Source of the DNA: a virus
IMG/VR virus record: IMGVR_UViG_3300031227_000496
Coordinates: 1-21,870 of that record
Reading direction: 5' to 3' (one strand)
DNA length: 21,870 nt
A program made the position numbers and the translations under genes. The notes under the pieces are model-generated. The model did no database searches, was not told the origin of the DNA, and worked only from the letters and a program-made list of their open reading frames with translations. Of this stretch, positions 1,001 through 17,135 are shown piece after piece (the first letter of the stretch is position 1; each line of letters starts with the position of its first letter).

Positions 1001-1049
1001 GGACAGAGGACAGAGGACGGAAGACAGAGGACAGATGACGGAGGACAGC
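1001..1049 (+). repeat. heptamer array, unit GGACAGA, 7 copies
   Basis: Seven consecutive 7-bp units of consensus GGACRGA fill the gap between the stop of the secreted-protein gene (999) and the next ATG (1050), with one base left over. The last two units join to give GGAGG at 1040-1044, which is the ribosome binding site of the next gene with a 5-nt spacer. Confidence 0.9.
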
Positions 1050-1661
1050 ATGACTATGATGGAGCGCGTGAGGGAAATGATGGCCCGAATGAGGGGTCAG
1101 AGATCAGGGACCAGGCGGCAGAGGCCAGGGATCAGGAAGAAAATATCGTATGAACGTGGCACACGCCGCACGGGATATGAAAGAAAGATATTGAACTGGC
1201 AGGCTCGGGAAATGGTAAGCCTCGGAATGCAGGAAATAAAGACGTTTCAGGAGGGTGCCTACGATTTTGACAAGATCCGCAAGGCCCACGACTGGGTGCT
1301 ACGGAATATAAAATGGAATTCCGACCAGGTTGTTTATGGCCGCACTGATTTCTGGGCGATATCAGATCGGGTTATCAAGCTAAAGACCGATGATTGCGAC
1401 GGCCAGGCAGTGGCAATGTGGCGCAAGATGCTGGATGCGGGTCTTCCGGATCTGGAGATAGGCATGGCCATCCTGATAGGCAACGGTCAGGGACATATGA
1501 CCGGACTGTATCATTTTACCGACGATGATTTCTGGGTGCTCGACAATGGATATATGACCACGGATATTATTAAGGCCTCGGAATTATTTGCAAACAAGAA
1601 ACGATGCAAGGGAATGAAACCCGTGGCAGGGTTTAATCTGCATCAGTTCTGGTCATACTAA
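1050..1661 (+). CDS. transglutaminase-like cysteine peptidase (BTLCP type)
   Basis: This encodes 203 residues. ATG 1050 is preceded by GGAGG at 1040-1044; the frame is open further upstream, but that part is translated repeat and was excluded. Residues about 70-170 match the bacterial transglutaminase-like cysteine proteinase fold (BTLCP, PF06035): a helix with HDWVLRNIKW, then YGRTDFWA, then the catalytic Cys in DDCDGQAVAMWR (C116), a His in GQGHMTG (H149) and an Asp in WVLDN (D165). Members are thought to be peptidases or peptide crosslinkers acting in the cell envelope. No signal peptide is visible. Residues 16-30, rich in Arg, Gln and Gly, are encoded by a second heptamer array. The lysis-module setting suggests an envelope-directed role (inference). 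Confidence 0.78.
   Translation: MTMMERVREMMARMRGQRSGTRRQRPGIRKKISYERGTRRTGYERKILNWQAREMVSLGMQEIKTFQEGAYDFDKIRKAHDWVLRNIKWNSDQVVYGRTDFWAISDRVIKLKTDDCDGQAVAMWRKMLDAGLPDLEIGMAILIGNGQGHMTGLYHFTDDDFWVLDNGYMTTDIIKASELFANKKRCKGMKPVAGFNLHQFWSY
1095..1136 (+). repeat. heptamer array inside a coding region, consensus GRYCAGR, 6 copies
   Basis: Six degenerate 7-bp units (GGTCAGA, GATCAGG, GACCAGG and so on) lie within the 5' end of the peptidase gene. 42 bp is 14 codons, so the frame is kept. A 14-bp segment here (GAGGCCAGGGATCA) recurs in reverse complement at 7610-7623. Confidence 0.8.
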
Positions 1662-1667
1662 AATACT

Positions 1668-1752
1668 CACCACGGAGACACAGAGGGCACGGAGAATAAA
1701 AAAAATTATAAAAAAAAGATATTTACTCTGTGAACTCTGTGTCTCTGTGGTG
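1668..1752. repeat. inverted repeat with 27-nt arms around an A-rich loop
   Basis: Left arm 1668-1694 and right arm 1726-1752 are near-perfect reverse complements: 23 of 27 Watson-Crick pairs, two more as G-U, and one two-base mismatch. The 31-nt loop is almost all A and T. The element fills the gap between the peptidase and holin genes. The right-arm sequence occurs again at 8381-8407, so this is a dispersed repeat and not simply a terminator; no U-tract follows the right arm. Confidence 0.85.
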
Positions 1753-1772
1753 AATAAAACGTGAGGGGGATC

Positions 1773-2342
1773 ATGGACTGGAAGGAAGTAGGTTCGGCGT
1801 TTGTGAGTAAGGGATTGCCTTTGCTTGGCGCGGTACTCGGTGGACCGGCAGGCGGCGCTATTGGGGCCGGTGTATCCGGACTTTTGTCTTCCGCCCTGGG
1901 ACTTACCTCGGATGAGATTCAGCCGAATAAAATTCTTGAGATGATGACCACGGATCCGGCGGCCATTACCAGGCTCCGGGAAATAGAATCAAATAATAAA
2001 ATAGAACTCCAGAGGCTCATCGTCCGTGGCGAGGAATTACGATTAGCCGGCGAGACACAACAGATCATGGCCGTTAATCAGACCATGCAGGCGGAGTCTA
2101 AAAGCGAGCATTGGGCACAATGGGCCTGGAGGCCCTACTGGGGCTTTATCTCCGGGACTACCTTTCTTGTGGTCGCGGTGTTTGTCTGTGTACTGGGATA
2201 TAAGGCGGTGACCGGCAGCAACCCGCAGGCCATCGGTATGATTCCCCTGCTGGTCGGCGCGTTCACCACGCTCTTTGGCGTGCCCGGCGCGATACTCGGC
2301 ATCAGTGCCTGGGGACGTAATAAGTTAAAGATTAAAAATTAA
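1773..2342 (+). CDS. 3-TM holin (GTA holin-like)
   Basis: This encodes 189 residues. ATG 1773 has GAGGGG at 1763-1768; a GTG at 1761 in the same frame would place the start before that site. Three hydrophobic segments are seen: a Gly/Ala-rich one at about 14-44, then about 122-142 and about 155-178. A charged, probably helical stretch lies between the first two. HWAQWAWRPYWG just before the second segment matches the WxRP motif of the 3-TM holins called GTA_holin_3TM (PF11351). Such proteins form lesions in the inner membrane that release the endolysin. Its position next to the SleB-type hydrolase and the lipoprotein gene supports a lysis role. The next gene starts 14 nt downstream. Confidence 0.72.
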   Translation: MDWKEVGSAFVSKGLPLLGAVLGGPAGGAIGAGVSGLLSSALGLTSDEIQPNKILEMMTTDPAAITRLREIESNNKIELQRLIVRGEELRLAGETQQIMAVNQTMQAESKSEHWAQWAWRPYWGFISGTTFLVVAVFVCVLGYKAVTGSNPQAIGMIPLLVGAFTTLFGVPGAILGISAWGRNKLKIKN

Positions 2343-2356
2343 AGTGAAGCAATTAT

Positions 2357-2722
2357 ATGAGTTATATCAAATACTTAGCATTTATATTAATTTTGCCGTT
2401 TATCTTCTCCTGCGCATCCATACCGGCAAAGTGGTCTCTCCGGGATAAGGCCCTTGGCACTATTGCCATTACAGGCTCTATCGCGGATACGGCGATCACG
2501 GAGCGCATGCTTGACACGGGCCGGTACAAGGAAACGAATTTATTTCTGGAGGATCATCCCTCCGATGGGGCTCTGGGCCTGCTTACGGCAATCGAGATCA
2601 TCGGCGTGATGCTCCTCGCTCACTATGCACCGGAGAAATATCGACCGTATATTCTTGGCACCTGGGCGGCAATTGGCTGGGGCTGTACATATCATAATTA
2701 TAGATTATGGAAAAAGGAGTAA
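2357..2722 (+). CDS. small phage lipoprotein of the lysis region
   Basis: This encodes 121 residues. The N-terminus has a lipoprotein signal: Lys5, a hydrophobic run, and the lipobox IFSC with Cys19 followed by Ala, a +2 residue that does not retain the protein in the inner membrane of proteobacteria. Two further hydrophobic stretches occur at about 75-92 and 100-113. An outer-membrane spanin would be expected to be a lipoprotein in this position, but the extra hydrophobic segments are unusual for one, so the function stays open. No strong Shine-Dalgarno precedes ATG 2357. The stop nearly touches the next gene (ATG 2726). Confidence 0.65.
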   Translation: MSYIKYLAFILILPFIFSCASIPAKWSLRDKALGTIAITGSIADTAITERMLDTGRYKETNLFLEDHPSDGALGLLTAIEIIGVMLLAHYAPEKYRPYILGTWAAIGWGCTYHNYRLWKKE

Positions 2723-2725
2723 TGG

Positions 2726-3692: not shown

Positions 3693-5151
3693 TCCGGCGG
3701 TAAACCTAACGGACTACCAGAAAAACTGGGTGCAGGATCACAGCCGGTTTAAGATCGGCGTCATTACCCGGCAGGGCGGCAAATCATTCAGCGGCGCCCT
3801 GGAGCCCGTGTTGGACTGCGCGGAGCAGAAAGACATGTGGGTGTTTCTCTCGGCGGGCGAGCGTCAGAGCAAGGAGTTAATGAGCAAGGCCGCGATGCAC
3901 GCACGTGCGGTCGGCAAGGTGATCGAGGAATTGGAGGGCGAATACTGGGTCGATAAGGATACGGTCTACAAACAACTTGAGATCGTGATGCCAAACGGCT
4001 CTCGTATTATCGGGCTTCCCGCGAACCCGGACACGGCCCGCGGATGGTCCGCGAATATCCTGCTGGATGAGTTTGCCCTGCATAGGGACAGCCGCGAAAT
4101 ATGGAAGGCCATGTTTCCCACGGTCACCCGTGGGTATAAGATTCGGATTATTTCTACATTCAAGGGAAAGAGCAATAAATTTTATGAGTTGTTTTTCGGC
4201 GCTCCCACAAAGCAGCGATTCACGGGCGCCGACTTTGAGAATGTCGGTGAACGGGGCGGATGGTCCAAGCACTTTGTAAATATCTATCAGGCAATACAGA
4301 TGGGCCTTGAACTCCATGATGAGGAAGGGGCACCCATCGAGCCGGAAGACCTCAGGCTTGCCCTCAATGACGACGACGCGTGGCAGGAAGAGTTCGAGTG
4401 CGTGCCGTCGGATGAGGTGAGCGCATGGCTCGGCCATGATTTGATCTCATCCGTCGAGGATGTACGCATAGAGAAAGAGCCTTCCTGGGTGGCGGATCTC
4501 ATAGCCGCCGCAACGGAAAATTACAAACTCTATAAACAAACAAAGATAAAGCCGGCCCTGCCGTTACACGTCCTCGCCAAGATAAAATTTTTAGGGGGCC
4601 TCCATGTCGGCATGGATATAGGCAGAAAAAAGGATTTGTCGGTGATCTGGGTGGATCAGGAAATAGACAATATACTGCAATGTGCCGCGGTGGTTGAACT
4701 AAAACGAACCCCGTTTTTTATTCAAGAGCAGGTACTGTATACGATTCTTTCCATCCCGAGATTTATTCGCGCCTGTATAGATGAGACCGGCATCGGCGCG
4801 CAGATCGCCGAGGGCGCCCAGGATCGATTCGGCGAATATAAGGTCGAGGGTATCCCATTTACAGCGGAGAATAAGGAGGTACTGGCCATCGGTATCAAGC
4901 AGAATTTCGAGGATATCGGCAGCCGGATTCCGTCCGACAGCACGATCCGGAGTTCACTGCACAGTGTAAAAAAATATCCGACAACCACCAAACATTTCCG
5001 GTTTGACGCGGAAAAGACCGAGGCCACGGGCCACGCCGATCATTTCTGGGCCAAGACCCTTGCCGTGCATGCGGCAAGTACACCCGCCGGCATCATAGAA
5101 TATAAAACAGTAATATCCCGCCGGTTCACGGCGATGCAGGGAGCATATTAA
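3679..5151 (+). CDS. terminase large subunit (Mu gp28-like)
   Basis: This encodes 490 residues. AGGAG at 3667-3671, inside the preceding gene, precedes ATG 3679 by 7 nt. The N-terminal ATPase shows a Walker A-like TRQGGKS (residues 30-36) and a Walker B ILLDEFA with D130/E131. The C-terminal RNase H-like nuclease shows three well-placed acidic residues: D313 in VGMDIGRKKDLSVIWV, D368 in CIDETGIGAQ, and D454 in HADHFWA. The protein drives ATP-dependent packaging of DNA into the prohead and cuts the packaged end. Length and motif order fit the Mu-type headful terminases. Start and stop abut the small terminase and portal genes, consistent with one operon. Confidence 0.92.
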   Translation: MGSVDPAVNLTDYQKNWVQDHSRFKIGVITRQGGKSFSGALEPVLDCAEQKDMWVFLSAGERQSKELMSKAAMHARAVGKVIEELEGEYWVDKDTVYKQLEIVMPNGSRIIGLPANPDTARGWSANILLDEFALHRDSREIWKAMFPTVTRGYKIRIISTFKGKSNKFYELFFGAPTKQRFTGADFENVGERGGWSKHFVNIYQAIQMGLELHDEEGAPIEPEDLRLALNDDDAWQEEFECVPSDEVSAWLGHDLISSVEDVRIEKEPSWVADLIAAATENYKLYKQTKIKPALPLHVLAKIKFLGGLHVGMDIGRKKDLSVIWVDQEIDNILQCAAVVELKRTPFFIQEQVLYTILSIPRFIRACIDETGIGAQIAEGAQDRFGEYKVEGIPFTAENKEVLAIGIKQNFEDIGSRIPSDSTIRSSLHSVKKYPTTTKHFRFDAEKTEATGHADHFWAKTLAVHAASTPAGIIEYKTVISRRFTAMQGAY

Positions 5152-6717
5152 ATGATTGTAGATCAGTTTGGTAGAGAGATCAAAATAAAAAAGCGACCGG
5201 AGACGCGGGAGATCGCGGTCACCACAATCCGGGACAGGTGGTCTGGATATCCGAGCCAGGGTTTAACCCCGCAAGGTCTGACAACTATTCTTAAGAACGC
5301 GGACGCCGGGGATCTTTACAGCCAGGCGGAGCTATACGAGGAGATGGAGGAAAAAGACACACATCTGTTTTCCCAGATGCAGACAAGAAAAAACGCGGTC
5401 CAGGGTCTGGAGTATGAGATCCTGCCGTATTCAAACAGCGCCGAGGACACCAAGATCCGGGATTTTATAACCGATGTGATTGCGGCAATAACGGATTTTG
5501 ACGACGCCCAATTGAATTTGCTGGATGCCATTGGGAAGGGCTTTGCCCTGTCCGAGGTCATGTGGGATGTCCAAGGGAAACAGGCGGTAATCAGCGGGCT
5601 CAACTGGATCCACCAGAAGCGCGCCCTCTTTTATTCCGATTACGAAAAAGGCCTCTGGGAAAAACAATACGAGATGCCGCGCATCATCACGGAATCCGAG
5701 CAGGTCAAGGGCGAGGAGATGCCCGCGTTCAAATTATTGTATCACCGATACAAGGCCAGATCCGGCTATGACACCAGGGCCGGCATACTCAGAACGTGTG
5801 CCTGGATGTATTTGTTCAAGAACTACGCCATCAAGGACTGGGTTGCATTCACGGAGATCTTCGGTATGCCCATGCGGCTTGGAAAATATGATTCGAGCGC
5901 GGGCAAGGAAGACAAGGAGGCACTTATCTCCGCTATCCGAAGCCTGGGAAGTGACGCGGCCGGAATTATCTCAAAAAACACCGAGATTGAATTTCTCGAG
6001 GTCGCCAAGTATGCGGGCAGGGATAATACCTACGAGGTACTCGCGGAATTCTGCAACAAGGAAATGTCAAAGGCGATTTTGGGCCAGACCGCGACCACGG
6101 AGGGAACCCCAGGCAGGCTTGGGGCCGACGATGCCCAGGACCTGGTGCGGCATGATCTCATCAAGGCGGATGAAGAGTCTCTCGCCAAGACATATCGTTC
6201 ACAATTTATACGCCCCCTCGTGGGCTATAATTTTGGATGGGATAAACCCCTGCCGTGGTTCAAATTCCGATTCGAGACAGCGGAGGATCTCAAGGACCTC
6301 TCCGAGGTATACAAAAATCTCCGTGAGATCAACCAGCCCATGTCCGCGGAGCATGTATCGGAGAGGTTCAAGATCCCCCTCCCTAAAAAGGGAGAGACGA
6401 CATTGGATGCCCCGGCGCAAAAATCAACCATGACCTCGGCCAAGGACAGACACATTATCGCGAAACAGACCCCATTTTCGCCTGAACAGGAGACAATAGA
6501 GGGTTTGGTAGGGGAGAGCATGGATCGTGCAGCCACGGCCATGTCAGGCCTTCAGGAGCCGGTAAAAAAACTAATTGCACGGGCCACATCCCTGGAGGAG
6601 ATCCGTGACGGGCTCTCCGCGCTCTACGATGAAATGGACCGGAAGGAAATGGAGGAGCTCCTTGCACGCTCCGTGTATGTGGCGGAGTTGTATGGGAGGC
6701 TGAGTGTGAGGGAGTAG
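5152..6717 (+). CDS. portal protein (DUF935, Mu gp29-like)
   Basis: This encodes 521 residues, with the ATG immediately after the terminase stop and GGGAG upstream at 5139-5143. Diagnostic stretches of DUF935 portals are present: YEEMEEKDTHLFSQMQTRK near residue 62, GKGFALSEVMW near 128, WVAFTEIFGMPMRLGKYD near 233, and ILGQTATTEGTPGRLG near 312. The portal forms the dodecameric ring at the head vertex through which DNA enters and on which the connector assembles. The C-terminal 100 residues are helical and charged, as usual for the crown region. Length is typical for the family. Confidence 0.93.
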   Translation: MIVDQFGREIKIKKRPETREIAVTTIRDRWSGYPSQGLTPQGLTTILKNADAGDLYSQAELYEEMEEKDTHLFSQMQTRKNAVQGLEYEILPYSNSAEDTKIRDFITDVIAAITDFDDAQLNLLDAIGKGFALSEVMWDVQGKQAVISGLNWIHQKRALFYSDYEKGLWEKQYEMPRIITESEQVKGEEMPAFKLLYHRYKARSGYDTRAGILRTCAWMYLFKNYAIKDWVAFTEIFGMPMRLGKYDSSAGKEDKEALISAIRSLGSDAAGIISKNTEIEFLEVAKYAGRDNTYEVLAEFCNKEMSKAILGQTATTEGTPGRLGADDAQDLVRHDLIKADEESLAKTYRSQFIRPLVGYNFGWDKPLPWFKFRFETAEDLKDLSEVYKNLREINQPMSAEHVSERFKIPLPKKGETTLDAPAQKSTMTSAKDRHIIAKQTPFSPEQETIEGLVGESMDRAATAMSGLQEPVKKLIARATSLEEIRDGLSALYDEMDRKEMEELLARSVYVAELYGRLSVRE

Positions 6718-6727
6718 GGGAAGAAGA

Positions 6728-6755
6728 TGAAATTGGAAATTGGAAATTGGAAATT
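6728..6755 (+). repeat. heptamer array, unit GGAAATT, 4 copies
   Basis: One TGAAATT and three exact GGAAATT units fill the gap between portal and methyltransferase. Together with the preceding bases they form the 19-bp sequence at 6723-6741, which is repeated exactly at 8309-8327. Confidence 0.9.
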
Positions 6756-6766
6756 GGGAAGAAAAG

Positions 6767-7558
6767 ATGAAACCATATTACGACCATAACGGCATTACGA
6801 TCTATAACGGGGATTGCTTAGAGATAATGCCGGATATCCCTACTGGTTTTGTTGATATGGTAATGGCAGATCCGCCCTACGGCACGACTGCTTGTGCTTG
6901 GGATTCGATTATACCGTTTGAACCAATGTGGGAGCAACTGAAGCGAATTATCAAGCCTAATGGTGCGATTGTAATGACTGCATCCCAACCGTTCACCACG
7001 ACCCTAATAAGCTCTAATATGGGGATGTTTAAATATGAATGGATTTGGAAGAAATCAAATCCTTCAAATATTGCCTTGGCAAATAAACAACCCATGAAGT
7101 ATCATGAAAACATTATAGTTTTTTGTGATGGACAGTCCTTGTATAATAAGGAAATGGTTACAAGGCTTAGTAACCGGATAAAACAAGCGCAAAGTTCTAA
7201 TTACAGTTTCCATAATTCTGGAAGCGCACAAACTGGCTTAAAGTATATAGAGGTTAATTCTAATAAATATGATGCAAACAAGAAGAATCCAAGTAGCGTT
7301 TTGGAGATAAATTCTTTGCGGCCCAACTCAAAGGAGTTTGTAAATCACCCCACCCAAAAGCCAGTAGCACTTATGGAATACCTTATCAATACCTACACCA
7401 ACGAAGGCGAAATGGTGCTGGACTTTGCAATGGGTTCAGGCACAACCCTTGTAGCTGGTAAAAAATTAGGGCGCAAGGCAATAGGGATTGAAATATCAGA
7501 AAAAGATTGCGAGACAGCGGTGGGGCGGCTTGCACAGGAGGCAATGCCTCTTGGCTAA
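6767..7558 (+). CDS. DNA methyltransferase, beta class (DPPY)
   Basis: This encodes 263 residues from ATG 6767; the frame is open upstream to a TTG inside the heptamer array, which I regard as untranslated. The catalytic motif ADPPYGTT (D35-Y38) comes first, a variable region follows, and the SAM-binding motif VLDFAMGSGTT (from about D219) comes last, so this is a beta-class enzyme. DPPY points to N6-adenine methylation, though N4-cytosine is not excluded. SQPFTTTLI and HPTQKP are also typical of this family. It probably protects phage DNA from host restriction. It interrupts the usual portal to F-protein order, is visibly AT-richer than its neighbours, and is bordered by heptamer arrays, so it looks like a cargo gene gained later. 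No restriction enzyme is present. Confidence 0.88.
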   Translation: MKPYYDHNGITIYNGDCLEIMPDIPTGFVDMVMADPPYGTTACAWDSIIPFEPMWEQLKRIIKPNGAIVMTASQPFTTTLISSNMGMFKYEWIWKKSNPSNIALANKQPMKYHENIIVFCDGQSLYNKEMVTRLSNRIKQAQSSNYSFHNSGSAQTGLKYIEVNSNKYDANKKNPSSVLEINSLRPNSKEFVNHPTQKPVALMEYLINTYTNEGEMVLDFAMGSGTTLVAGKKLGRKAIGIEISEKDCETAVGRLAQEAMPLG

Positions 7559-7644
7559 CAGCTCAAAGCTCAAAGGTTAGAGCACAGAGGACGGAGGACG
7601 GAAAAATACTGATCCCTGGCCTCTGGCTACTGACAACTGGATAT
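7554..7644 (+). repeat. heptamer array in two orientations, 13 units
   Basis: Thirteen units of 7 bp run without a phase break from the methyltransferase stop to one base before the next ATG. The first units (GCTCAAA twice, then GGACGGA twice) have the form GNNNNRA. After an A-rich unit the last five (TGATCCC, TGGCCTC and so on) begin with TG, and most read as the reverse complement of the GRRNYCA-type unit seen at 1095-1136. The array includes the upstream stop codon. Confidence 0.85.
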
Positions 7645-7645
7645 T

Positions 7646-8329
7646 ATGACAATCGAATTAACACCATTGCCGTTTGATGAGGCGCGGGAATATTTTGAGG
7701 GGCTTTTGCCCCTGGCGGCGGAGGAATATTATGCCCTGGAAGAGGGGGCGCGGCGCACGGCTTTTACCGTGGCCGATGTGGCGGCGAAGGATATTATCGA
7801 GGATATTCATGGCGCCATCAGCGCGGCCATTACGGAGGGCGAGACACTGAGTGATTTCCGGGACCGGCTGGATGATATTTTTCAGGCGCGGGGCTGGGAT
7901 ACGCCACCGGACATGACGCCCTGGCGGGTGCAGACTATCTTTCGGACCAATGTACAGACGGCCTATCAGGCCGGGCGGTACAAGCAGATGAAGGACCAGG
8001 CGGAGAGGTTTCCCTTTTGGGAATACGACGCGGTGATGGATAGCCGCACCAGGCCGACACACGCGGCCCTGGATGGCAAGGTTTTCCCGGAGGATCATTC
8101 CTTCTGGGATACCTGGTATCCGCCCAACGGCTTTAACTGCCGGTGCACGGTCCATGCGGTACACAAATACGCGGCCGAGGAGGAGAATCTTACAATAGAG
8201 ACACACGACCCGACCGGGGAATTAATCGAGCCGGTAGACCCGGCAACCGGAAAAAGGATGCCGGCCAGACCCCTGATCCCTGACGAGGGATGGGATCATA
8301 AACCGACTGAAGATGAAATTGGAAATTAG
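7646..8329 (+). CDS. minor head protein, Mu F-like (SPP1 gp7 family head morphogenesis)
   Basis: This encodes 227 residues. ATG 7646 has no recognisable Shine-Dalgarno; the 5' side is entirely heptamer repeat. Core motifs of the Phage_Mu_F family are clear: IFRTNVQTAYQAGRY near 113, then the zinc-finger-like stretch with MDSRTRPTHAALDGKVFP, then YPPNGFNCRCTVHAV with two Cys, and a late RPLIPDEGWDH. These proteins sit in few copies inside the head near the portal and help prohead assembly. The protein is shorter than Mu F (gp30) and represents mainly the conserved domain. The last codons (DEIGN) and the TAG stop are part of the GGAAATT array, so the C-terminus was shaped by the repeat. Confidence 0.88.
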   Translation: MTIELTPLPFDEAREYFEGLLPLAAEEYYALEEGARRTAFTVADVAAKDIIEDIHGAISAAITEGETLSDFRDRLDDIFQARGWDTPPDMTPWRVQTIFRTNVQTAYQAGRYKQMKDQAERFPFWEYDAVMDSRTRPTHAALDGKVFPEDHSFWDTWYPPNGFNCRCTVHAVHKYAAEEENLTIETHDPTGELIEPVDPATGKRMPARPLIPDEGWDHKPTEDEIGN

Positions 8330-8341
8330 AAATTAGAAATT
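8314..8341 (+). repeat. heptamer array, unit RGAAATT, 4 copies
   Basis: Units TGAAATT, GGAAATT and two AGAAATT overlap the stop codon of the F-like gene. The first 14 bp plus five bases upstream equal the copy before the methyltransferase (19 bp identical, 8309-8327). Confidence 0.9.
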
Positions 8342-8380
8342 GGAAAGAAAAAAGATAAGCAGTGTTTAAAAATTATTATT

Positions 8381-8407
8381 CTCCGTGAACTCTGTGTCTC
8401 TGTGGTG
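8381..8407 (+). repeat. second copy of the 27-nt dispersed repeat
   Basis: This is 26 of 27 identical to the right arm at 1726-1752. Here there is no matching left arm, so it cannot form the long hairpin. It lies between the F-like and protease genes, upstream of the protease ribosome binding site. Confidence 0.88.
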
Positions 8408-8430
8408 ATAACTGAAATTGAGGAAATACT

Positions 8431-9471: not shown

Positions 9472-9533
9472 TCCTGGTCATCAGGGAGATGGAATCAGGA
9501 CATAATAGATAACAAACAGAAGGAGGAACGATT

Positions 9534-10613
9534 ATGACAGCATTAACAGAAGACAAGAGTCTGCAATACACCGAGGGTGTGGAGCTGGCCTTTGAGGTGT
9601 CCGCCGCGGATACCATCTATGGAGGCTCGTTTGTATGCGTGGCCGCCGATGGATATGCAGTACCGGGCGCGGATACCGCGGGCCTGATATTTCAGGGCGT
9701 GGCCACCGAGCAGGTAGATAACTCCGGCGGATCGGACGGCGACGAGCAAGTAGTCCTGCGCCGGAGGGGCCTGATTAAAGCCCTTCTCGATACGGCAATT
9801 ACTATCGCAAACGTGGGGGATAATGTTTTTCTCGTGGACGATCAGACCGTGGACATTACGGCCTATACCACTCACGATATCTTTTGCGGGATCATCGCGG
9901 GATATATCGACACAACCCACGCGTGGATCGACATAGAGCCTGCCATACGCCAGGCAGACGTTGCCACGCATATCGCGGACACAACCGGGGCACACGCCGC
10001 AAGCGCCATCAGCGGCGCGGACGCCGGTTTATTTACCACCGAGACAGATCTGGAGGGGATGATGCAGGAAATCTACCAGCATATTAAAACAACCAAGGGC
10101 ATCATCGATATCCCCATGCCCACCATCACCGATGCAGGGGTACCACTGGCGGCGTTCTCGAATGCCTCCAATCCCCTGCCTGGCTTTTGCGTAACGGCGA
10201 AGGGGATGGGCGTCCGGTGGAACAATGACCCCAATCCCACGGCGGTCGCAACCAAGGCTATGGTCCCGCCCGATATGGATGTCACCGCCAACGCGGTGGT
10301 TCATATACTGGCGGCCAAGGTCGGCGCAACCGATGCCGATGACACCAAGTTCACCGTGGTTGCATATAACAATGTGGTGGCCGCGCTCTATGACGCGGAC
10401 ACGGATTTCGGGGGCGATACCGATGCGATGGTCGGAGTCTCCGCGACAAAGACCGTGCAGCACGTCACCCTGACCCTGGCACTGGCAAACCTGGCAGCAT
10501 ATCCGGCGGCAATAGAACTGACCCTGCAGCCCAAGGACGGGACGCTCGGCACGGATGATGTCATCATGCTCACCCAGTGGATCGAGTATAAACGCAAGGC
10601 ATTAACATCGTAA
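9534..10613 (+). CDS. head decoration-like protein with extra C-terminal domain
   Basis: This encodes 359 residues, with AGGAGG at 9521-9526 before ATG 9534. Residues 1-130 resemble small phage head-decoration proteins: LIFQGVATEQVDN, RRGLIKALLDTAI, VGDNVFLVDDQTVD, and GIIAGYIDTTHAWIDIEPA. They form a compact beta domain. A linker (about 140-180) contains the DTTGAHAAS motif often seen in phage fibres and a helix. Residues about 190-359 form a second beta-rich domain that I cannot name. The place between protease and gpT major head fits a decoration protein, and the second domain may project from the capsid (inference). Confidence 0.68.
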   Translation: MTALTEDKSLQYTEGVELAFEVSAADTIYGGSFVCVAADGYAVPGADTAGLIFQGVATEQVDNSGGSDGDEQVVLRRRGLIKALLDTAITIANVGDNVFLVDDQTVDITAYTTHDIFCGIIAGYIDTTHAWIDIEPAIRQADVATHIADTTGAHAASAISGADAGLFTTETDLEGMMQEIYQHIKTTKGIIDIPMPTITDAGVPLAAFSNASNPLPGFCVTAKGMGVRWNNDPNPTAVATKAMVPPDMDVTANAVVHILAAKVGATDADDTKFTVVAYNNVVAALYDADTDFGGDTDAMVGVSATKTVQHVTLTLALANLAAYPAAIELTLQPKDGTLGTDDVIMLTQWIEYKRKALTS

Positions 10614-10676
10614 CATCGTAATAGATATTCAACGTAGTTTTTCGACGGATGGATAACAAAAAAAAGGAGGAATATT

Positions 10677-11579
10677 ATGATAGTAAATAGAGCGAATATA
10701 GAGTCGGTTTTCATCAATCTGAAAACCACGTTTAACAAGGCATTCGACGCGGCCCCGGCGGTGTGGCAAGAAACCACTATGCTGGTCCCCAGCGGGTCCG
10801 GCCAGAACGACTATGCCTGGCTGTCGAGATTTCCCAAAATGCGCAAATGGCTGGGCGACAAGGTTATTAAAGACCTGGAGGCATTCAAGTATACGGTGGT
10901 CAATGATGACTGGGAGGCCACGATAGAGGTGGATCGTAACGATATTGATGACGATAACGTGGGCATTTATGCACCGCAGGCACAGGAGGCGGGCTACAGC
11001 GCGAAGCAGCTCCCGGACGAGCTCGACGCGACCCTGAAAAATAACGCCTTTGCAACCGATTGCTTTGATGGGCAATATTTCTACGACAATGATCACGATG
11101 TGGCGGGCGCCAGCGTGAGCAACGTAAGCGCGGTCGCTCTTTCAGCGGCTACCACCGCGGCAGCTACCGCGAGTTATGGCGCAGCCCGGTTGGCGATCAT
11201 GAGCTTTAAGGATGACGAGGGAAGGCCGTTGGCCCTTATCCCGAATGTTCTTGAAGTCGGACCGGCGTTAGAGGCCACGGGAAGGCTCATACTCGAAAAC
11301 GCGAAGTTGACCGACCAGAGCCCGAACCCGTACCACGGCACGGCGAGACTATTGCTAAATCCCCGCATTACGAGCGCGACTCAGTGGATGCTCCATGTAA
11401 CCAACCGCCCCCTGAAGCCTTTCGTATATCAGGAGCGGAAAAAACCCGTTTTCGTGCAGCAGACCACGGAGGAAACCGACAACGTATTTATGCGGAAGAA
11501 ATTCCGATTCGGCGCCGAGGCACGGGCGGCCGGTGGCTATGGCCTCTGGCAGCTATCGTTCGGCAGTACCGGGGCGTGA
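10677..11579 (+). CDS. major head protein (Mu gpT-like)
   Basis: This encodes 300 residues. A strong AGGAGG in an A-rich leader (about 10655-10676) precedes ATG 10677, as expected for the most abundant virion protein. Characteristic gpT (PF10124) stretches: LKTTFNKAFDAAP near 15, PKMRKWLGDKVIKDLEAFKY near 54, VDRNDIDDDNVGIYAPQA near 86, and the late region FVYQERKKPVFV. It forms the capsid shell. Length is close to Mu gpT. Neighbours on both sides are head genes. Confidence 0.93.
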   Translation: MIVNRANIESVFINLKTTFNKAFDAAPAVWQETTMLVPSGSGQNDYAWLSRFPKMRKWLGDKVIKDLEAFKYTVVNDDWEATIEVDRNDIDDDNVGIYAPQAQEAGYSAKQLPDELDATLKNNAFATDCFDGQYFYDNDHDVAGASVSNVSAVALSAATTAAATASYGAARLAIMSFKDDEGRPLALIPNVLEVGPALEATGRLILENAKLTDQSPNPYHGTARLLLNPRITSATQWMLHVTNRPLKPFVYQERKKPVFVQQTTEETDNVFMRKKFRFGAEARAAGGYGLWQLSFGSTGA

Positions 11580-11580
11580 T

Positions 11581-11615
11581 AGACGGAGGACAGAGGACGG
11601 AGGACAGAGGACGGC
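11581..11615 (+). repeat. heptamer array, unit GGACRGA, 5 copies
   Basis: Five units alternating GGACAGA and GGACGGA follow directly on the gpT stop. It is the same unit as the array at 1001-1049, 10.5 kb away. Confidence 0.9.
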
Positions 11616-11649
11616 CTTCGGCCTGGAAAGCTAACAACCCAGTGATAGT

Positions 11650-11675
11650 GCCCGCGCCGGAGTACTGGCGCGGGC
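11650..11675 (+). promoter_or_regulatory. GC-rich hairpin just before the gp35-like ribosome binding site
   Basis: Left arm GCCCGCGCC (11650-11658) and right arm GGCGCGGGC (11667-11675) pair perfectly over 9 bp with an 8-nt loop. AGGAG of the next gene starts 4 nt after it. There is no U-tract, so it is not a standard terminator. It may stabilise an mRNA end or limit readthrough after the highly expressed gpT gene. Confidence 0.6.
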
Positions 11676-11691
11676 CAATAGGAGCAAGACT

Positions 11692-12099
11692 ATGATAAAA
11701 ATAGCAGGTAAACGACATAATTTCCGGCGCTGCGGCATAGCACATCCAAAGGACCCGGTCGAGCACAATGATGATCGGTTTTCGAAAAAAGAGCTTGCGA
11801 TATTAAAAGCGGAGCCCATGTTAATCGTGGAGGTTACGGTTGACGAAGACACAGGACAACCGCCCGATGACTCCGAGCCCGGTATATTGGAACATGCGGT
11901 TTACGTTGCCCCGGCGCAGCCAGAGGATCCCCTGATAGCCGCGGCACGAGAGGCGATATTACGGGGCAAGACAACCGGGGACGGCAAACCGTTGGTTTCG
12001 GCAATGGAGGAGATAATGGAGGAAGATATTTCCGCCGCGGATCGAGACCGGGCCTGGGAAAGTATTCAAGAAGGCCTCAGAAGTAAGGGGATCGTATAA
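11692..12099 (+). CDS. Mu gp35-like small head protein
   Basis: This encodes 135 residues; AGGAG at 11680-11684 precedes ATG 11692. The first 47 residues show the pattern of the Mu-like gp35/HI1506 N-terminal domain: FRRCGIAHP near 11, then FSKKELAILKAEPMLIVEV. The middle is acidic and low in complexity, and residues about 80-130 are helical. Its precise job is not known; in Mu-like phages the gene always lies between gpT and gp36, as here. The stop shares a base with the next start (TAATG at 12097-12101). Confidence 0.72.
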   Translation: MIKIAGKRHNFRRCGIAHPKDPVEHNDDRFSKKELAILKAEPMLIVEVTVDEDTGQPPDDSEPGILEHAVYVAPAQPEDPLIAAAREAILRGKTTGDGKPLVSAMEEIMEEDISAADRDRAWESIQEGLRSKGIV

Positions 12100-12524
12100 T
12101 GGCATACAGCACACAGGCGGATATACTGGAGCAAATGGACAGTGATATTCTTGTCCAACTCACCGACGACGCGGACGCCGGCGCGGTCGACGCGGACGCC
12201 GTGACCCGCGCCATTGCGGACGCGGACGCGGAGATCAACGGCTATTGCGGTGCACGGTATGCAACCCCATTCGCCACGGTCCCGGCAATAATTCGCAAAG
12301 TCTCGGTGGATCTGGCCATCTACAATCTCTATGCCCGGCGCACAAGCGTGCCCGAGGATCGACAAAAGCGATACACCGATGCCATACGATTTTTGAAAGA
12401 TGTGGCAAAAGGCATCGCCACTCTCGGGGCAAACGACCCGGACGGAAGTCCCGCCGAGGCAAACACACTGGATATAGACCAGTCGCCCAGGCTCTTTACC
12501 AGGGACACACTACACGGTTTTTAA
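12099..12524 (+). CDS. gp36-like head-tail joining protein (DUF1320)
   Basis: This encodes 141 residues. The DUF1320 pattern is clear: YSTQADILEQMDSDILVQLTDD at the N-terminus, VTRAIADADAEINGYCGARYATPF in the middle, then LAIYNLYARR and the RYTDAIRFLKDVAKG helix. These helical proteins are counterparts of gp6-type connector adaptors under the portal. It is coupled to both neighbours by TAATG overlaps (12097-12101 and 12522-12526). Confidence 0.9.
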   Translation: MAYSTQADILEQMDSDILVQLTDDADAGAVDADAVTRAIADADAEINGYCGARYATPFATVPAIIRKVSVDLAIYNLYARRTSVPEDRQKRYTDAIRFLKDVAKGIATLGANDPDGSPAEANTLDIDQSPRLFTRDTLHGF

Positions 12525-13042
12525 TGATTTCACTCAAACTAAATTTAGACGATACAGAGCTCAAGCGAAACATCGGCGAGATAATAGGTCGCCTTGAAAA
12601 GCCCAAGCAGGCACTCAAAGAGTGCGGGCTGGTATGGTTGCGCTCGATAGGCAAAAACTTCAAGACCGGCGGCCGGCCCATGCGGTGGAAGACATCGAAA
12701 AGGGCGGCGGCAACGGGCGGCGGAAAGACATTGGTGGATACCGCAGTGCTTAAGAACTCCATCACAGTCAAGGCCGATGAAACAAGCCTTACCGCGGGAA
12801 CAGTTGTAAAGTCCGGGGCCATTCATCAGCTTGGCGGAAAGATAAATAAGAATGTCAAGGTTAATAAATTCTGGCGCTATATGGACACGGCATTTGGAAA
12901 GGCAATCGCCCCTCGGCATGTGCTTGTCAGCGCACATACAAGACAGATGAATCTGACCATGCCGAAACGACCCTTCCTGGTGGTCCAGGACGCGGACTGG
13001 CGGGTATTTCAACGAATATTCGAGGATTATGTAACACAATGA
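12524..13042 (+). CDS. virion morphogenesis protein (Mu gpG-like, phage tail S family)
   Basis: This encodes 172 residues. The start is ATG 12524, which overlaps the gp36-like stop; a longer open frame upstream of it lies on top of the gp36-like gene. Typical features: a helical N-terminus ending in GLVWLRSIGKNFKTGG, then RWKTSKRAAATGGGKTLVDTAVLKNSI, GAIHQLGG, and PKRPFLVV near the C-terminus. Members help complete the tail end or head-tail joint. In Mu this gene (G) lies earlier next to F; here it sits between the gp36- and gp37-like genes, as in the siphovirus relatives. Confidence 0.87.
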   Translation: MISLKLNLDDTELKRNIGEIIGRLEKPKQALKECGLVWLRSIGKNFKTGGRPMRWKTSKRAAATGGGKTLVDTAVLKNSITVKADETSLTAGTVVKSGAIHQLGGKINKNVKVNKFWRYMDTAFGKAIAPRHVLVSAHTRQMNLTMPKRPFLVVQDADWRVFQRIFEDYVTQ

Positions 13043-13473
13043 AAGCCCTGATAAAAGCGATAAAAACACAGCTTCAAACATCGTTGACCACGATCCGAAA
13101 CAGCGACATATTCGTGACCGAGGATGAGCGGCTGATTCCCTCATCCGTTAAGTTTCCGGCGGCGGGAATCAAGGATGGGTCTATCGCGTATGAGATGCAG
13201 ACCAACATCCAGGAGAAGCACGAACTCGATGTCAAAATAATTATATATGTGCAGCTCCACAAGCCGGAGGCGTCCATCATGGGCGATACATCCACGACCA
13301 AGCTGGGCGTCCTGGATCTTATGGCGGCGGTGTATGCGGCACTCAAAAACAATCTACTGTCCGGACAGGCCGACATTGCCTGGCCCGTGGGGGAGAGCGA
13401 GAGCGAGCTTCTCGCGGACGATGACACGGCGATACAGATGAAGATCATCACCATGCGGTATACGAGGCTTTAA
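13039..13473 (+). CDS. gp37-like tail terminator/completion protein (DUF1834)
   Basis: This encodes 144 residues. Start and preceding stop overlap as ATGA (13039-13042). DUF1834-like features: a helical N-terminus, a central beta segment with FPAAGIKDGSIAYEMQ, and then HELDVKIIIYVQLH, followed by a helix (VLDLMAAVYAALKNNLL) and a final strand MKIITMRYTRL. Members close the tail tube at the head end. It is the last gene of the connector group before the array at 13474-13564. Confidence 0.78.
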   Translation: MKALIKAIKTQLQTSLTTIRNSDIFVTEDERLIPSSVKFPAAGIKDGSIAYEMQTNIQEKHELDVKIIIYVQLHKPEASIMGDTSTTKLGVLDLMAAVYAALKNNLLSGQADIAWPVGESESELLADDDTAIQMKIITMRYTRL

Positions 13474-13564
13474 AGATAATTGATAATTGATAATGAATAA
13501 TTGAAAATTGATAGTTGAAACTCTTTCTAATTGCAAGTTTCAAGTATCAAATTTCAAATTAAAA
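13474..13564 (+). repeat. heptamer array forming a large inverted repeat, 13 units
   Basis: Thirteen contiguous 7-bp units occupy 91 bp starting at the base after the gp37-like stop. The left units read TTGATAA/TTGAAAN; the right units read as their reverse complement (GTTTCAA, GTATCAA, ATTTCAA). Arms 13501-13521 and 13537-13557 match at 19 of 21 positions; both mismatches fall on the seventh base of a unit. The loop is 15 nt. Confidence 0.92.
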
Positions 13565-13577
13565 AGGAGGAAATATC

Positions 13578-14768
13578 ATGACAATAGGAAAAGGTTTTGA
13601 AGGAATTCTCGGCATTAAAAAGGAAGCCGCTTATGGCACGGCCATTGCCGTGACCGAGTCGATCCCGTTTGTGTCGGAGTCATTCGGCAACGAGATCGAG
13701 AAACACGCGGACGAGGTGCTACGTGGCAAGGCAGGCATAGGATCGAGCATTGCGGGAAACACCATGTATCCCTTTACCATCCCCTGCAAGCTCACATACG
13801 AGGATCTTGATTTTGTGATCGCGGCCGCCCTGGGCCACGCGGGTCCGCCGATTGCAAACGCCGCGCTCTACGACAACACCTACTCACTGGCGAAAAATAT
13901 CGACTATTCCTTTACGGCGGCGGCCTACAAGGGCGTGAGCGTGTGGGAGTATGCGGGCTGTAAGATCAACACAATCAAGATATCCGGCGAGGCAAACAAA
14001 CCCCTGGATTTTGAAATCAGCGGTGTGGCTAAGGCATTGGATCTGGCCTCCGCCACAAACACCGCAGCCATACTTTTGGCCCTGAGCACGGAAGATGATG
14101 CGGCGAAGATCATGTTTAGCGACCTGGAATTTAAGATAGCTGCACAGGCAACCGACCTGGCCGGTGAGGCCGAGGTGGGGATCAACAGCTTTGAGCTCCT
14201 GATCAACAACAATATGGCCGTCGACCAATTTGATAACCGCGCAACCACGATCCTTGAGCCGCAGAGAAACGGTTTCAGGGCCGTAACCCTCAAGTTTGCC
14301 GTGCCACGCTATGAGGCGGATACATACCTGGACTGGCGGGACGGCGATACCAAGCTCAACGCGTATCTCAAGTTTGCCTCCGGCAATTATGTATTTGACA
14401 TCCACGCCCCGGAGCTCAAGATCGACAAGGCGGAGGCCCCCATAGGCGGCCCCGGTCTCATCGAGCAGAGCATCGAGAGCACATGCTTCAGGGATGCAAG
14501 CCGGGCGACCGGTACCTTTACGCGCGCCGTATGGACGGCGACAACGGCATACGCCCTGGGCGACGTCGTGGTGCCGCTTGCCACCGAGAATGGTTTTAAA
14601 TACGTTTGCAGTTCTGCCGGTAACTCGGACGGAGGCGAGCCTGTCTGGCCAACGGCGGATCTGGACACGGTCGTTGACGATGGCGCAACATGGACCCATG
14701 ACGGCACGGTGGATTGCGAAGTGGAAATCGATGTCACCAATGCAAGGGCAGCATCAGTGTTGGCGTAA
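13578..14768 (+). CDS. tail tube protein 1, with carbohydrate-binding-like insertion
   Basis: This encodes 396 residues, with a strong AAGGAGG before ATG 13578. The first 310 residues resemble phage tail-tube proteins that begin with GFEGILGIKKEAAYGTAI and contain repeated beta strands, such as FELLINNNM and LKFAVPRYEADTYLDW, ending in APIGGPGLIEQ. The next gene is a paralogue. Residues about 319-376 are an extra domain: W319, TAYALGDVVVP, NGFKYVC, AGNSDGGEPVWPT, DDGATW372. This is the pattern of the small CBM-like or Ig-like modules common on phage tails. A final strand (CEVEIDVTN) resumes the tube fold. The module probably projects from the tail surface and binds glycans (inference). Confidence 0.8.
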   Translation: MTIGKGFEGILGIKKEAAYGTAIAVTESIPFVSESFGNEIEKHADEVLRGKAGIGSSIAGNTMYPFTIPCKLTYEDLDFVIAAALGHAGPPIANAALYDNTYSLAKNIDYSFTAAAYKGVSVWEYAGCKINTIKISGEANKPLDFEISGVAKALDLASATNTAAILLALSTEDDAAKIMFSDLEFKIAAQATDLAGEAEVGINSFELLINNNMAVDQFDNRATTILEPQRNGFRAVTLKFAVPRYEADTYLDWRDGDTKLNAYLKFASGNYVFDIHAPELKIDKAEAPIGGPGLIEQSIESTCFRDASRATGTFTRAVWTATTAYALGDVVVPLATENGFKYVCSSAGNSDGGEPVWPTADLDTVVDDGATWTHDGTVDCEVEIDVTNARAASVLA

Positions 14769-14771
14769 GAG

Positions 14772-14876
14772 AAAGAAGTAAGGAATAAGGAGTAAGCAGT
14801 AAGCAGTAAAGAGTAAGGAATAGGCTGAAGGACAGCCTAATAGCTAATAGCTAACGGCTAAGAGCTAACTGACAGA
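14772..14876 (+). repeat. heptamer array with central hairpin, 15 units
   Basis: Fifteen 7-bp units run in one phase through the gap between the two tail-tube genes. The left half is TAAGGAA/TAAGCAG, the right half AGCTAAT/AGCTAAC. At the changeover TAGGCTG (14821-14827) and CAGCCTA (14833-14839) form a perfect 7-bp stem with a 5-nt loop. Confidence 0.9.
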
Positions 14877-14890
14877 AGGGAGGTTTTACC

Positions 14891-16015
14891 ATGACTACCG
14901 GCGCGGGATTTTCATCTTTGGCGGCGTGGAAGAGGGAGGCGGATCAGTCTGATTACGGCACGCCGATAGAATGCGTGGCCGAGGATCAGTTTCCCCTCCT
15001 TACGGAGGGCCTGGCCAGGGATGTTGAGAAGGAATTGGATAATGTAATCCGCCACAAAGCCGGATACGGCGCAAGTGATGTGATAAGTAAACTTGTGGGC
15101 GGGCCAGTGGCAATGGAGGCCGTGTATAGAGGCATGGAATCCATCATATGCACGGCCCTGGGGTTCTGCAATTATAGCGCTTCTCCGGAGACCGTGGCCG
15201 CCGGCGTATACAAACATACAGTTGAGCCCTCGGACAATATGCATACACAGTCCTGGCTCGCGGGCGACGGCATCCTCGCGGGGGCCGGCTACCTCGCCGG
15301 TGATCAGAAGGTGCGGCGGGGGACACTGTGTATCGACAAGGGCGTATCGCTCTGGGAGTTTATCTCTACCATGATAAACACCATCACGATCAAGGGAGAT
15401 TCAAAGGGGGTCTCTATCGATCTCGACATGATCCCCTATGATCTTGACCGGGGCTCCGCGGTTAACACAACCTCGGCGGCCTGGACTATCTATAACAATG
15501 ACTGGGAGTCCATCCTGTTTCAGGACATGGTGCTCTGGATAGACGATTACTCGGCGGGAACCGCCCTGACCGATGCGGACGCGCAGGGTGTGTCGGAATT
15601 TGAGATCAAGATTGAAAACAATATGGGCCAGGGGCGGGACAGCCTCTCGGGCCTCTATATCGCGGAGCCCAGGCGTGATCAAAAACGCAAGGTCACGGGT
15701 AGCTTTACCTTTCCAAGGTATGAAGATGATAATTTTCTCGATGACCTGAGCGCCCAGAACGCGCTTATGGCCATGCTTAGATTTACCGGCTCCCAGATCG
15801 GGGCCACCGGCTATTATAGAACATTCTGGATCTGGCTGCCTACCATGAAATTCGACAAGGTGGACGCCCCTATGGGCGGCCCCGGCCTTATATCCGTGAC
15901 ACACACATTCACAGCGGAGATACCGGCCGCGTGCCCAGCGGGCTTTCCGCCCGAGGCCACCCGGGAGATCATAGTCGAGATGCAGAATGATAATGCAACA
16001 AATCCGTTAACATAA
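14891..16015 (+). CDS. tail tube protein 2 (paralogue of the preceding gene)
   Basis: This encodes 374 residues; GGGAGG at 14878-14883 precedes ATG 14891. It shares the overall order of tail tube 1: an N-terminal KREADQSDYGTPI, a central FEIKIENNMGQ, TGSFTFPRYEDDNFLDDL, and MKFDKVDAPMGGPGLISVTH, ending in a last strand REIIVEMQNDNAT. It lacks the CBM-like module of its neighbour. Two tube genes of this size side by side suggest either a mixed tube or one copy serving as a specialised ring, for example at the tail end. Which is the main subunit cannot be decided from sequence. Confidence 0.78.
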   Translation: MTTGAGFSSLAAWKREADQSDYGTPIECVAEDQFPLLTEGLARDVEKELDNVIRHKAGYGASDVISKLVGGPVAMEAVYRGMESIICTALGFCNYSASPETVAAGVYKHTVEPSDNMHTQSWLAGDGILAGAGYLAGDQKVRRGTLCIDKGVSLWEFISTMINTITIKGDSKGVSIDLDMIPYDLDRGSAVNTTSAAWTIYNNDWESILFQDMVLWIDDYSAGTALTDADAQGVSEFEIKIENNMGQGRDSLSGLYIAEPRRDQKRKVTGSFTFPRYEDDNFLDDLSAQNALMAMLRFTGSQIGATGYYRTFWIWLPTMKFDKVDAPMGGPGLISVTHTFTAEIPAACPAGFPPEATREIIVEMQNDNATNPLT

Positions 16016-16042: not shown

Positions 16043-16408
16043 ATGAGTGAAAAAAAGGGGGGAATAAGAGCTGTAAACGCGAGTGAAAGGCTGGAATACA
16101 AGAAAGGTGAGTCGACAATATTCTACAGGCGGATCTCATCGTATGAACACGGCCTGATCCAGAAACGTCACACACGTAGGGGAAAACCCGACTGGACCGA
16201 AATATCCAGGGAAGTAATGGAATATGTTGTTATTGGATGGGAAAAAATAAAAGAAGACGAGGAAAAATACCTTTCTTTTGAAAAACAACATATTTCAGCT
16301 TTGCCGCAGGATGACCAAATGGAGCTGTTAGATTTGGCCGGTGCATCGGATATTGCAGGCCATGAGAACAAATTAAAAAACTTAAAGACTTCCTCGTCTG
16401 GCAAATAA
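16043..16408 (+). CDS. tail assembly chaperone (lambda G-like), zero-frame product
   Basis: This encodes 121 residues; AAGGAG at 16031-16036 precedes ATG 16043. It begins with a charged tail, then STIFYRRISSYEHGLIQKRHTRRGKPDWTEISREVMEYVVIGWE, a pattern seen in tail-assembly chaperones of Mu-like siphoviruses. The C-terminus is helical and acidic. It lies directly between tail-tube and tape-measure genes, where nearly all long-tailed phages keep a G/T-type pair. Most ribosomes would stop at TAA 16406-16408; a fraction should shift at 16375-16381 into the -1 frame. The chaperone coats the tape measure during tube assembly. Confidence 0.82.
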   Translation: MSEKKGGIRAVNASERLEYKKGESTIFYRRISSYEHGLIQKRHTRRGKPDWTEISREVMEYVVIGWEKIKEDEEKYLSFEKQHISALPQDDQMELLDLAGASDIAGHENKLKNLKTSSSGK

Positions 16409-16453
16409 CGCATCAGACAAGCTGCACCGAGTGCAGACAAACCTACGAGGAAG
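16375..16453 (+). promoter_or_regulatory. programmed -1 ribosomal frameshift signal
   Basis: The zero frame reads TTA AAA AAC, giving the slippery heptamer A AAA AAC at 16375-16381. After 7 nt (16382-16388) a stem begins: CTTCCTCGT (16389-16397) pairs with ACGAGGAAG (16445-16453), 9 bp without mismatch. Inside its loop CTGCAC (16422-16427) and GTGCAG (16431-16436) form a second hairpin with a 3-nt loop. The -1 frame is open from 16366, so the overlap of the two frames is only 43 nt and holds exactly this site. Confidence 0.85.
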
Positions 16454-16713
16454 AAAACAGGGACCCGCCATGCGAGGAAAAGGGACATTGCCCAATCAGC
16501 GCAATCGAGCTCATGCCGGAAAATCAATTCGCCCTGGACTTTTGGCACAAAATCAAGGGCCTGGGCACGGATCTCGTCTTCCGGCTGCTGGACAAGTCAT
16601 TTACCGGCCTGGAAGCGGAAAATCTGTTAGAGACACTGGCCTACATCGACCATGTGGTCAATGAGGTCCAGCGACAGATGCAAAAGGAAGAGGATAAGAA
16701 GAGGAAAAGATAG
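16381..16713 (+). CDS. tail assembly chaperone extension (lambda T-like), made by -1 frameshift
   Basis: This frame adds 110 residues to the first 113 residues of the chaperone, giving a fusion of about 223 residues. It opens at 16366 with no start codon of its own near the beginning; an ATG at 16513 would cut off the most conserved part. The extension contains TSCTECRQTYEEENRDPPCE and a later HC, so four Cys that may bind a metal, then LMPENQFALDFWHKI and an all-helical end. Cys pairs followed by PEN-x2-A are typical of the second tail-chaperone reading frame in phages. It ends at TAG 16711-16713, which is also the start of a heptamer array. Confidence 0.82.
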   Translation, partial: LKDFLVWQITHQTSCTECRQTYEEENRDPPCEEKGHCPISAIELMPENQFALDFWHKIKGLGTDLVFRLLDKSFTGLEAENLLETLAYIDHVVNEVQRQMQKEEDKKRKR

Positions 16714-16746
16714 TTATTAGTTATTGGTTATTGGTTATTGGTTACT
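16712..16746 (+). repeat. heptamer array, unit RGTTATT, 5 copies
   Basis: Units AGTTATT (2), GGTTATT (2) and GGTTACT follow one another and overlap the stop codon of the chaperone extension. The remaining 55 bp to the next start has no clear repeat apart from the palindrome CTCCGGAG (16745-16752) and the ribosome binding site. Confidence 0.9.
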
Positions 16747-16801
16747 CCGGAGAGAGCCGAAATCCAGTCAGAGCAACGAGAACAACTGAAAGGAGGAGCA
16801 A

Positions 16802-17095
16802 ATGGCACATTTAACATGGATTGATTCAACTCCGGTCAACCCAACAAATTTAAATAAGCTAAGTCAGGAGGAAGATCTGCAGCCGCCCGTGGCGGTGGCA
16901 TTCGCGGGGGATACAGGGCACACCATAAACCACAGCTACGGACATACGGACTACCAAGTGATCATCAATCCCGTTGCGGATCCGGCCGGATTTCTCGGCG
17001 ATATCTGGATCAGCAAAGCGGCCAATACCGCGGTAGTTTACAACAGCGGCTCGGCCACCGGGAATTTTGATTACGTGGTTATTCCGGCTGCGTAG
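16802..17095 (+). CDS. small beta-rich tail-associated protein of unknown function
   Basis: This encodes 97 residues, with AGGAGG at 16791-16796 before ATG 16802. The N-terminus LTWIDSTPVNPTNLNKL matches the W-x-D-x-TPV-x3-NLN motif common at the start of phage fibre and baseplate-associated proteins. The rest (GDIWISKAANTAVVYNSG, then TGNFDYVVIP) looks like a small beta domain. No membrane segment. It could be a tail decoration or a short adaptor; I do not recognise a named family. Confidence 0.65.
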   Translation: MAHLTWIDSTPVNPTNLNKLSQEEDLQPPVAVAFAGDTGHTINHSYGHTDYQVIINPVADPAGFLGDIWISKAANTAVVYNSGSATGNFDYVVIPAA

Positions 17096-17100
17096 AAAGA

Positions 17101-17135
17101 AGGTTTAAGGTCAGAGGTCAGAGGTCAGAGGTCAG
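17101..17135 (+). repeat. heptamer array, unit AGGTCAG, 4 exact copies plus one degenerate
   Basis: AGGTTTA followed by four exact AGGTCAG units lies between the beta protein and the MerR-like gene. The unit is a rotation of GAGGTCA, related to the degenerate unit at 1095-1136. Confidence 0.92.

Follow-up and report, generated by a model that had tools for sequence, protein, structure and literature searches.

The 21,870-bp IMG/VR virus record IMGVR_UViG_3300031227_000496 (called the window here, meaning the whole stretch analyzed) carries Mu-like phage late genes for terminase, Mu portal, F-like protein, I-like protease, gpT capsid, two tail-tube proteins, and tape measure. Nearly all of the larger gaps between these structural genes are occupied by tandem arrays of a 7-bp unit (heptad arrays), and the heptad word differs from gap to gap. 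A preliminary description of this DNA had assigned a period of exactly 7 bp to ten intervals, and each of the ten, tested singly, had 7 as its best lag (p about 0.001 each). Over the gaps, identity at lag 7 was 0.483 compared to 0.293 in dinucleotide shuffles made within each gap (z = 13.2), a value reached by 0 of 500 shuffles; the autocorrelation check that the description had proposed thus came out well in its favor. Identity was also raised at lags 14 (z = 8.9) and 21 (z = 4.7), and apart from 7 and 14, no lag from 2 to 20 was clearly raised in the gaps. The coding DNA of the window gave no signal (lag-7 identity of 0.247), and a 28-bp scan yielded 10 lag-7 arrays but no array at lags 4 to 6 or 8 to 13.

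Related phages and bacterial genomes contain such arrays as well, as the description had asked to see. Lag-7 arrays are present in 28 of 80 related phage contigs found by portal search, and with the window included, these phages have 105 lag-7 runs, whereas lags 8 and 9 have 27 and 16. In a search of named genomes, the nearest prophages were mostly those of metagenome-assembled genomes of Deltaproteobacteria/Desulfobacterota, where 20 prophage loci carry lag-7 arrays; the prophage loci of named genomes together gave 89 lag-7 runs versus 12. No prophage locus in Bacillota had lag-7 arrays, and no heptad array was found in 364 kb of Bacillota-derived DNA. Host chromosomes contained 90 arrays in 359 kb of G004 (about 250 per Mb), 31 in 94 kb of G009 (about 330 per Mb), and 12 in 197 kb of G005 (61 per Mb), with 7 as the dominant period in all three. 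The CAGTRAT family, searched with the pattern CAGTRATCAGTRATCAGT, had 294 matches in G004 and 0 for the reversed control pattern. Two contigs that were picked solely by one array sequence, L402 and L403, have Mu-type transposition genes, so arrays are not confined to late operons. Because the same arrays occupy chromosomal gaps in Desulfobacterota, they are not the feature of a Mu-like late operon for which they had been taken. They are a lineage-wide DNA habit common to the phage and its probable hosts among the Desulfobacterota (bacteria of the sulfate-reducer type, many of which have such arrays scattered over their chromosomes and harbor related viruses) and no special viral device. Within that phylum the distribution is patchy. 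GGACRGA, which recurs in the window, is present in 5 of 198 Desulfobacterota genomes, and host assignment of the window by this unit failed since none of the five is a clear host.

The position of the arrays relative to genes was assessed with simple gene calls made for this analysis, on which the inverted-repeat statistics are also based. Of 65 co-directional phage gaps, 46 had their first array starting no more than 10 bp from the upstream stop codon, where 10.6 would be expected; for hosts, the count was 52 of 91, with 13.4 expected. Among gaps with arrays, 27 of 72 in phages and 58 of 93 in hosts contained inverted repeats, versus 0 and 2 after shuffling; the figures for array-free gaps were 9% (phage) and 17% (host). 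An array was much more likely to have an inverted partner in its own flanks than in those of other arrays. The spacers between arms ranged from 7 to 55 bp in no fixed register, with uniform offsets in CAGTRAT, the only family with enough cases. A heptad register continuing through the loop was thus not found for CAGTRAT, although the window gaps at 7559 and 13474 look in register. Taken together, the arrays are short (about 3 to 8 copies), belong to lineage-specific unit families, often form inverted pairs capable of a stem-loop, and lie between co-directional genes.

The arrays of the window follow this pattern (Table 1). Apart from the array at 1095 and the second arms of pairs, all are about 12 bp or less from the upstream stop codon or start at or inside that codon. 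The preliminary claim that they are intergenic holds for most of them and needs correction for two: the array at 1095 to 1136 lies inside the called N terminus of a BTLCP-like gene (1050 to 1661) whose start codon is uncertain, with a later start possible, and that at 8310 to 8349 starts within the Mu F-like gene, at its 3' end, and provides the stop codon of that gene. The former array is also weaker and degenerate, and it falls under the run threshold of the lag scan. Similarly, the period is 7 whatever the unit, as claimed, but the units are not different everywhere: GGACRGA recurs three times (1001, 7587, and 11582) and GAAATTR twice (6729 and 8315). Super-periods of 14 bp (at 11582) and 21 bp (at 1002) are both multiples of 7. 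The gap at 7559 to 7645 folds as a single stem-loop built of heptads (z = -4.6), as does the gap at 13474 to 13577, and in the gap at 14769 to 14890 a short hairpin separates two arrays.

Table 1. Heptad arrays of the window
Position	Strand	Unit	Placement or remark
997..1049	+	GGACRGA, 7 units	1 bp past upstream stop codon (gene end 999)
1095..1136	+	GRYCAGR, degenerate, 6 units	lag-7 identity 0.66, p about 0.001
6723..6763	+	GAAATTG, 4 units	11 bp past portal gene stop codon
7559..7645	+	heptad-filled gap: GCTCAAA x2, GGACGGA x2, then TGGCYNN-type units	
8310..8349	+	GAAATTR, 4-5 units	
11581..11615	+	GGACGGA/GGACAGA alternating (perfect 14-bp repeat)	2 bp past major capsid stop codon
13472..13520	+	TGATAAT and variants (5' arm)	1 bp past stop codon
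13524..13564	+	GTTTCAA and variants (3' arm)	inverted relative to end of 5' arm
14765..14822	+	TAAGNAR, 6-7 units	directly 3' of first tail-tube gene
14837..14871	+	AGCTAAY, 4-5 units	after short hairpin TAGGCTG/CAGCCTA
16708..16749	+	GGTTATT, 5 units	begins at stop codon of open reading frame 16513-16713
17099..17144	+	AGGTCAG, 4-5 units	12 bp past upstream stop codon

Among 90 phage arrays there were 73 distinct units. The constant period with a variable unit, on which the preliminary description had built its argument, is thus confirmed, but the unit is not freely variable, given the lineage-specific families and frequent inverted pairs. Units from different gaps were within one substitution of each other in 14 to 35% of pairs within hosts and 16% within phages, the corresponding values being 3.3% for pairs from different phages and 1.8% for random heptamers, and prophage units resemble the units of their own lineage. 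Unit variants have a mild transition excess that resembles ordinary point mutation. A general purine bias on the sense strand was rejected because the purine fraction, 0.61 in single phage arrays, is 0.48 in hosts.

Orthologous gaps retain arrays to a degree. At 80 to 90% flank identity, 45% of the partners of array-bearing gaps also had an array, compared to 11% of the partners of array-free gaps, and the units were no more than 1 base apart in 14 of 18 array pairs (6% for random units), although these gap pairs are not independent; at 70 to 80% flank identity the units were near random. Between the congeneric genomes G004 and G005, 7 of 12 alignable array gaps had an array in both, some of the G005 contigs having been selected for bearing CAGTRAT arrays. 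Differences between related contigs were also recorded. A whole hairpin is replaced between L107 (CAGTRAT/ATYACTG) and L109 (AAAAGGG/CCCTTTT), a whole array is present in L062 between genes whose sister genes in L058 overlap or abut, and L125 and L126 differ by 7 bp in length. The last difference and the 14- and 21-bp super-periods fit with steps in multiples of 7. Array-bearing gaps had a median length of 102 bp versus 83 bp for array-free orthologous gaps, so most of the latter are not simply empty. At orthologous gaps, arrays tend to be retained, with the unit drifting or giving way to another one, in some cases on both arms of a hairpin.

Heptanucleotide repeats are already known, and the multi-family arrays of Desulfobacterota and their phages are a new form of them; in the literature searched, with few subscription papers within reach, there was no account of multi-family heptad arrays in this phylum or its phages. 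As expected of heptanucleotide simple-sequence repeats (SSRs), the window arrays are tandem 7-nt units longer than chance and, judged on the window and related hosts, are mainly intergenic and genome-wide. As cited in PMC4679880 and PMC4692102, Mrazek et al. (2007) found heptanucleotides to be the most common class of longer SSRs and proposed a 7-nt polymerase contact as the cause; on the strength of those citations, the enzyme with a 7-bp footprint suggested in the preliminary description is not a new idea. The arrays share the heptanucleotide class with these long SSRs, so far as the citing papers describe them, but each of the present genomes and phages has many unrelated units, and the arrays are short, imperfect, often in inverted pairs, and close against stop codons.

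Four better described systems resemble the arrays in part. In Xanthomonas and Nostoc, arrays of the heptads GGGAATC and GGGGA(C/T)T (Rehm et al. 2015, PMC4692102) mostly have about four units, with degenerate positions and some inverted pairs, and, as here, occupy the same gene pairs in sister species with variable length and sequence. They form a single G-rich, quadruplex-forming family, whereas the present arrays comprise dozens of families mostly without G-tracts, and no window array is made of G-tract units that could supply the four tracts of at least 3 G that a quadruplex takes. In the P6b stem-loop of the Nostoc trnL (UAA) intron, degenerate heptads of Class I (TDNGATT) or Class II (NNTGAGT) lie on both hairpin arms, the class is swapped whole with the stem kept, and indels are 7 or 14 nt (PMC4476775, PMC3488679). 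Heptads on both arms are also seen in the window gaps 7559 to 7645 and 13474 to 13577, and thus in only some arrays. P6b is one locus within a group I intron; the present arrays are dispersed through genomes and phages, and the window has no Rfam match to such an intron or to any other family, which also rules out a known RNA family as their identity. TAACTGA repeats of Beggiatoaceae, Cyanobacteria, and Bacteroidetes are short intergenic heptamer arrays common to distant lineages (PMC4679880), but they have a single unit and for the most part directly precede start codons, in contrast to the present arrays, which have many units and for the most part directly follow stop codons; no tandem TAACTGA is among the window units, and a single copy lies near 14866. 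The deltaproteobacterium Geobacter metallireducens has GGGACCG x4 at 49 sites and MTYCTGA x5 (PMC2700814); these fixed families, two in number, have been annotated as putative regulatory elements and also occur within genes, in contrast with the many families here. The cyanobacterial short tandemly repeated repetitive sequences offered earlier as a parallel are similar in kind only, as the nearest prophages belong to Desulfobacterota and not to Cyanobacteria.

We propose, with a probability of about one half, that the arrays are heptanucleotide SSRs of a kind that the probable hosts, Desulfobacterota, have throughout their genomes, and that they occur in a phage replicating or lysogenizing there, where they are renewed by duplication and tolerated. 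Replication-linked duplication, through slipped-strand or template-switch synthesis, would create and renew arrays in steps of 7, 14, or 21 bp, the copying machinery of the lineage setting the constant length of 7. Arrays would persist chiefly in the stretch from a stop codon to the next ribosome-binding site, since at other places they would disrupt a gene. Unit families may be shared because template switching or conversion from array to array homogenizes them, and ordinary point mutation would act on arrays after their formation. By default, we regard the arrays as tolerated gap filler rather than as serving the phage.

Several observations weigh against this proposal. Turnover was not observed: among contigs about 99.6% identical or more, 0 of 39 array comparisons had an indel, and since several of these comparisons are non-independent and the divergence is very small, only very fast slippage is excluded. 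Interior neighbor units were no more alike than units two apart, contrary to plain one-unit slippage; an early signal of neighbor correlation was biased by the lag-7 selection of arrays and was gone with order-independent selection. The slippage with a fixed step suggested in the preliminary description agrees with the 7-bp length difference and the super-periods, but one-unit slippage was not directly seen. Mirrored unit order in the two arms was nonsignificant (60 pairs, low power) and so did not demonstrate copying of one arm from the other. The unit families of the window match those of sampled chromosomes at only 0.3 to 1.7% (7% with G161), which does not identify its host.

A spreading element, in which small heptad-armed units, mobile or retro-copied, would insert next to stop codons and new families would spread and replace old ones, is unlikely. 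It would account for the recurrence of one genome's families at many loci, for inverted arms that flank a spacer, and for the block insertion in L062 and the hairpin swap between L107 and L109. By eye, however, the alignments have no conserved core, ends, or target duplication, and the spacer varies in length and register. Moreover, dozens of unrelated units share one period, and many arrays have no inverted partner.

We are similarly doubtful that the arrays are functional and act on transcripts or protein output. Their adjacency to stop codons and the conservation of position despite unit change, with orthologous hairpins altered in both arms, leave room for function, and the TAACTGA repeats of Beggiatoaceae have been proposed as sites for a translational regulator (PMC4679880). 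RNA-level selection through wobble pairs received no support, as G.U mismatches between arms were no more common than A.C mismatches (35 versus 39 in hosts, 6 versus 11 in phages). The array is missing in about half of the orthologous gaps at 80 to 90% identity, and the window array gaps at 6718 to 6766, 8330 to 8430, 16714 to 16801, and 17096 to 17150 fold no better than shuffles. Transcription termination was ruled out because no window array has a T-tailed stem and convergent gaps have no clear excess of arrays.

We judge it quite improbable that heptad-rich lineages own a dedicated copying activity with a 7-nt step, due to a specialized polymerase, a reverse transcriptase, or an enzyme resembling telomerase, by which arrays of changing sequence would be written directly past stop codons in both host and phage DNA.

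Two near-identical IMG/VR contigs of the same phage bear on the remaining alternatives. L003 (99.97% identical over window positions 4292 to 13931) and L271 (99.62% over 6148 to 15952) have the same arrays in the overlap with no indel, which makes assembly error unlikely. Most of the differences between the window and L271 (34 of 37) are concentrated in a single tract of the portal gene, at its 3' end (6228 to 6557), as if by recombination. Phase-variation repeats that switch late genes through copy number would, like the arrays, be short tandem units near genes, but the units are imperfect, they are located in intercistronic gaps of structural genes, and copy number is constant among near-identical contigs, albeit at small divergence; we consider this explanation very improbable. 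An assembly artifact or chance, conceivable for a metagenome-derived fragment, can be dismissed for practical purposes because the shuffles fall short of the signal, two other contigs have the same arrays, and named genomes have such arrays too.

The cause of the favored 7-bp period in bacterial SSRs has been a standing question since at least 2007. A fixed period with a changing unit, together with orthologous gaps across many relatives, separates step length from sequence and makes this question testable. Specific predictions follow from stop codon adjacency and the lineage-specific unit families, and the unit family of such a phage may point to the lineage of its host.

Other features of the window were also recorded. 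The two neighboring genes at 13578 to 16015 match the tail-tube family PF18906 and are probably a duplication, with the heptad gap at 14769 to 14890 between them. An N6/N4 DNA methylase gene (6767 to 7558), with heptad gaps on either side, separates the portal and F-like genes and was probably inserted there, because the alignable portal and F parts are only about 90 bp apart in L004. A long inverted repeat at 1667 to 1753, CACCACGGAGACACAGAGG...CTCTGTGTCTCTGTGGTG, encloses an AT-rich loop (fold z = -13.6), and the right half of the repeat is found again at 8380 to 8410. Similar ACAGAG/CTCTGTG stem-loops adjoin heptad arrays in G004 (L182, near 2570 to 2750), so the repeat looks like a second dispersed element. 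A small open reading frame amid the late genes (17151 to 17441) is, by appearance, a candidate MerR-type DNA-binding protein. Inside the tape-measure gene, at 19730 to 20178, a 207-bp (69-residue) unit is repeated in tandem, with 2.2 copies.

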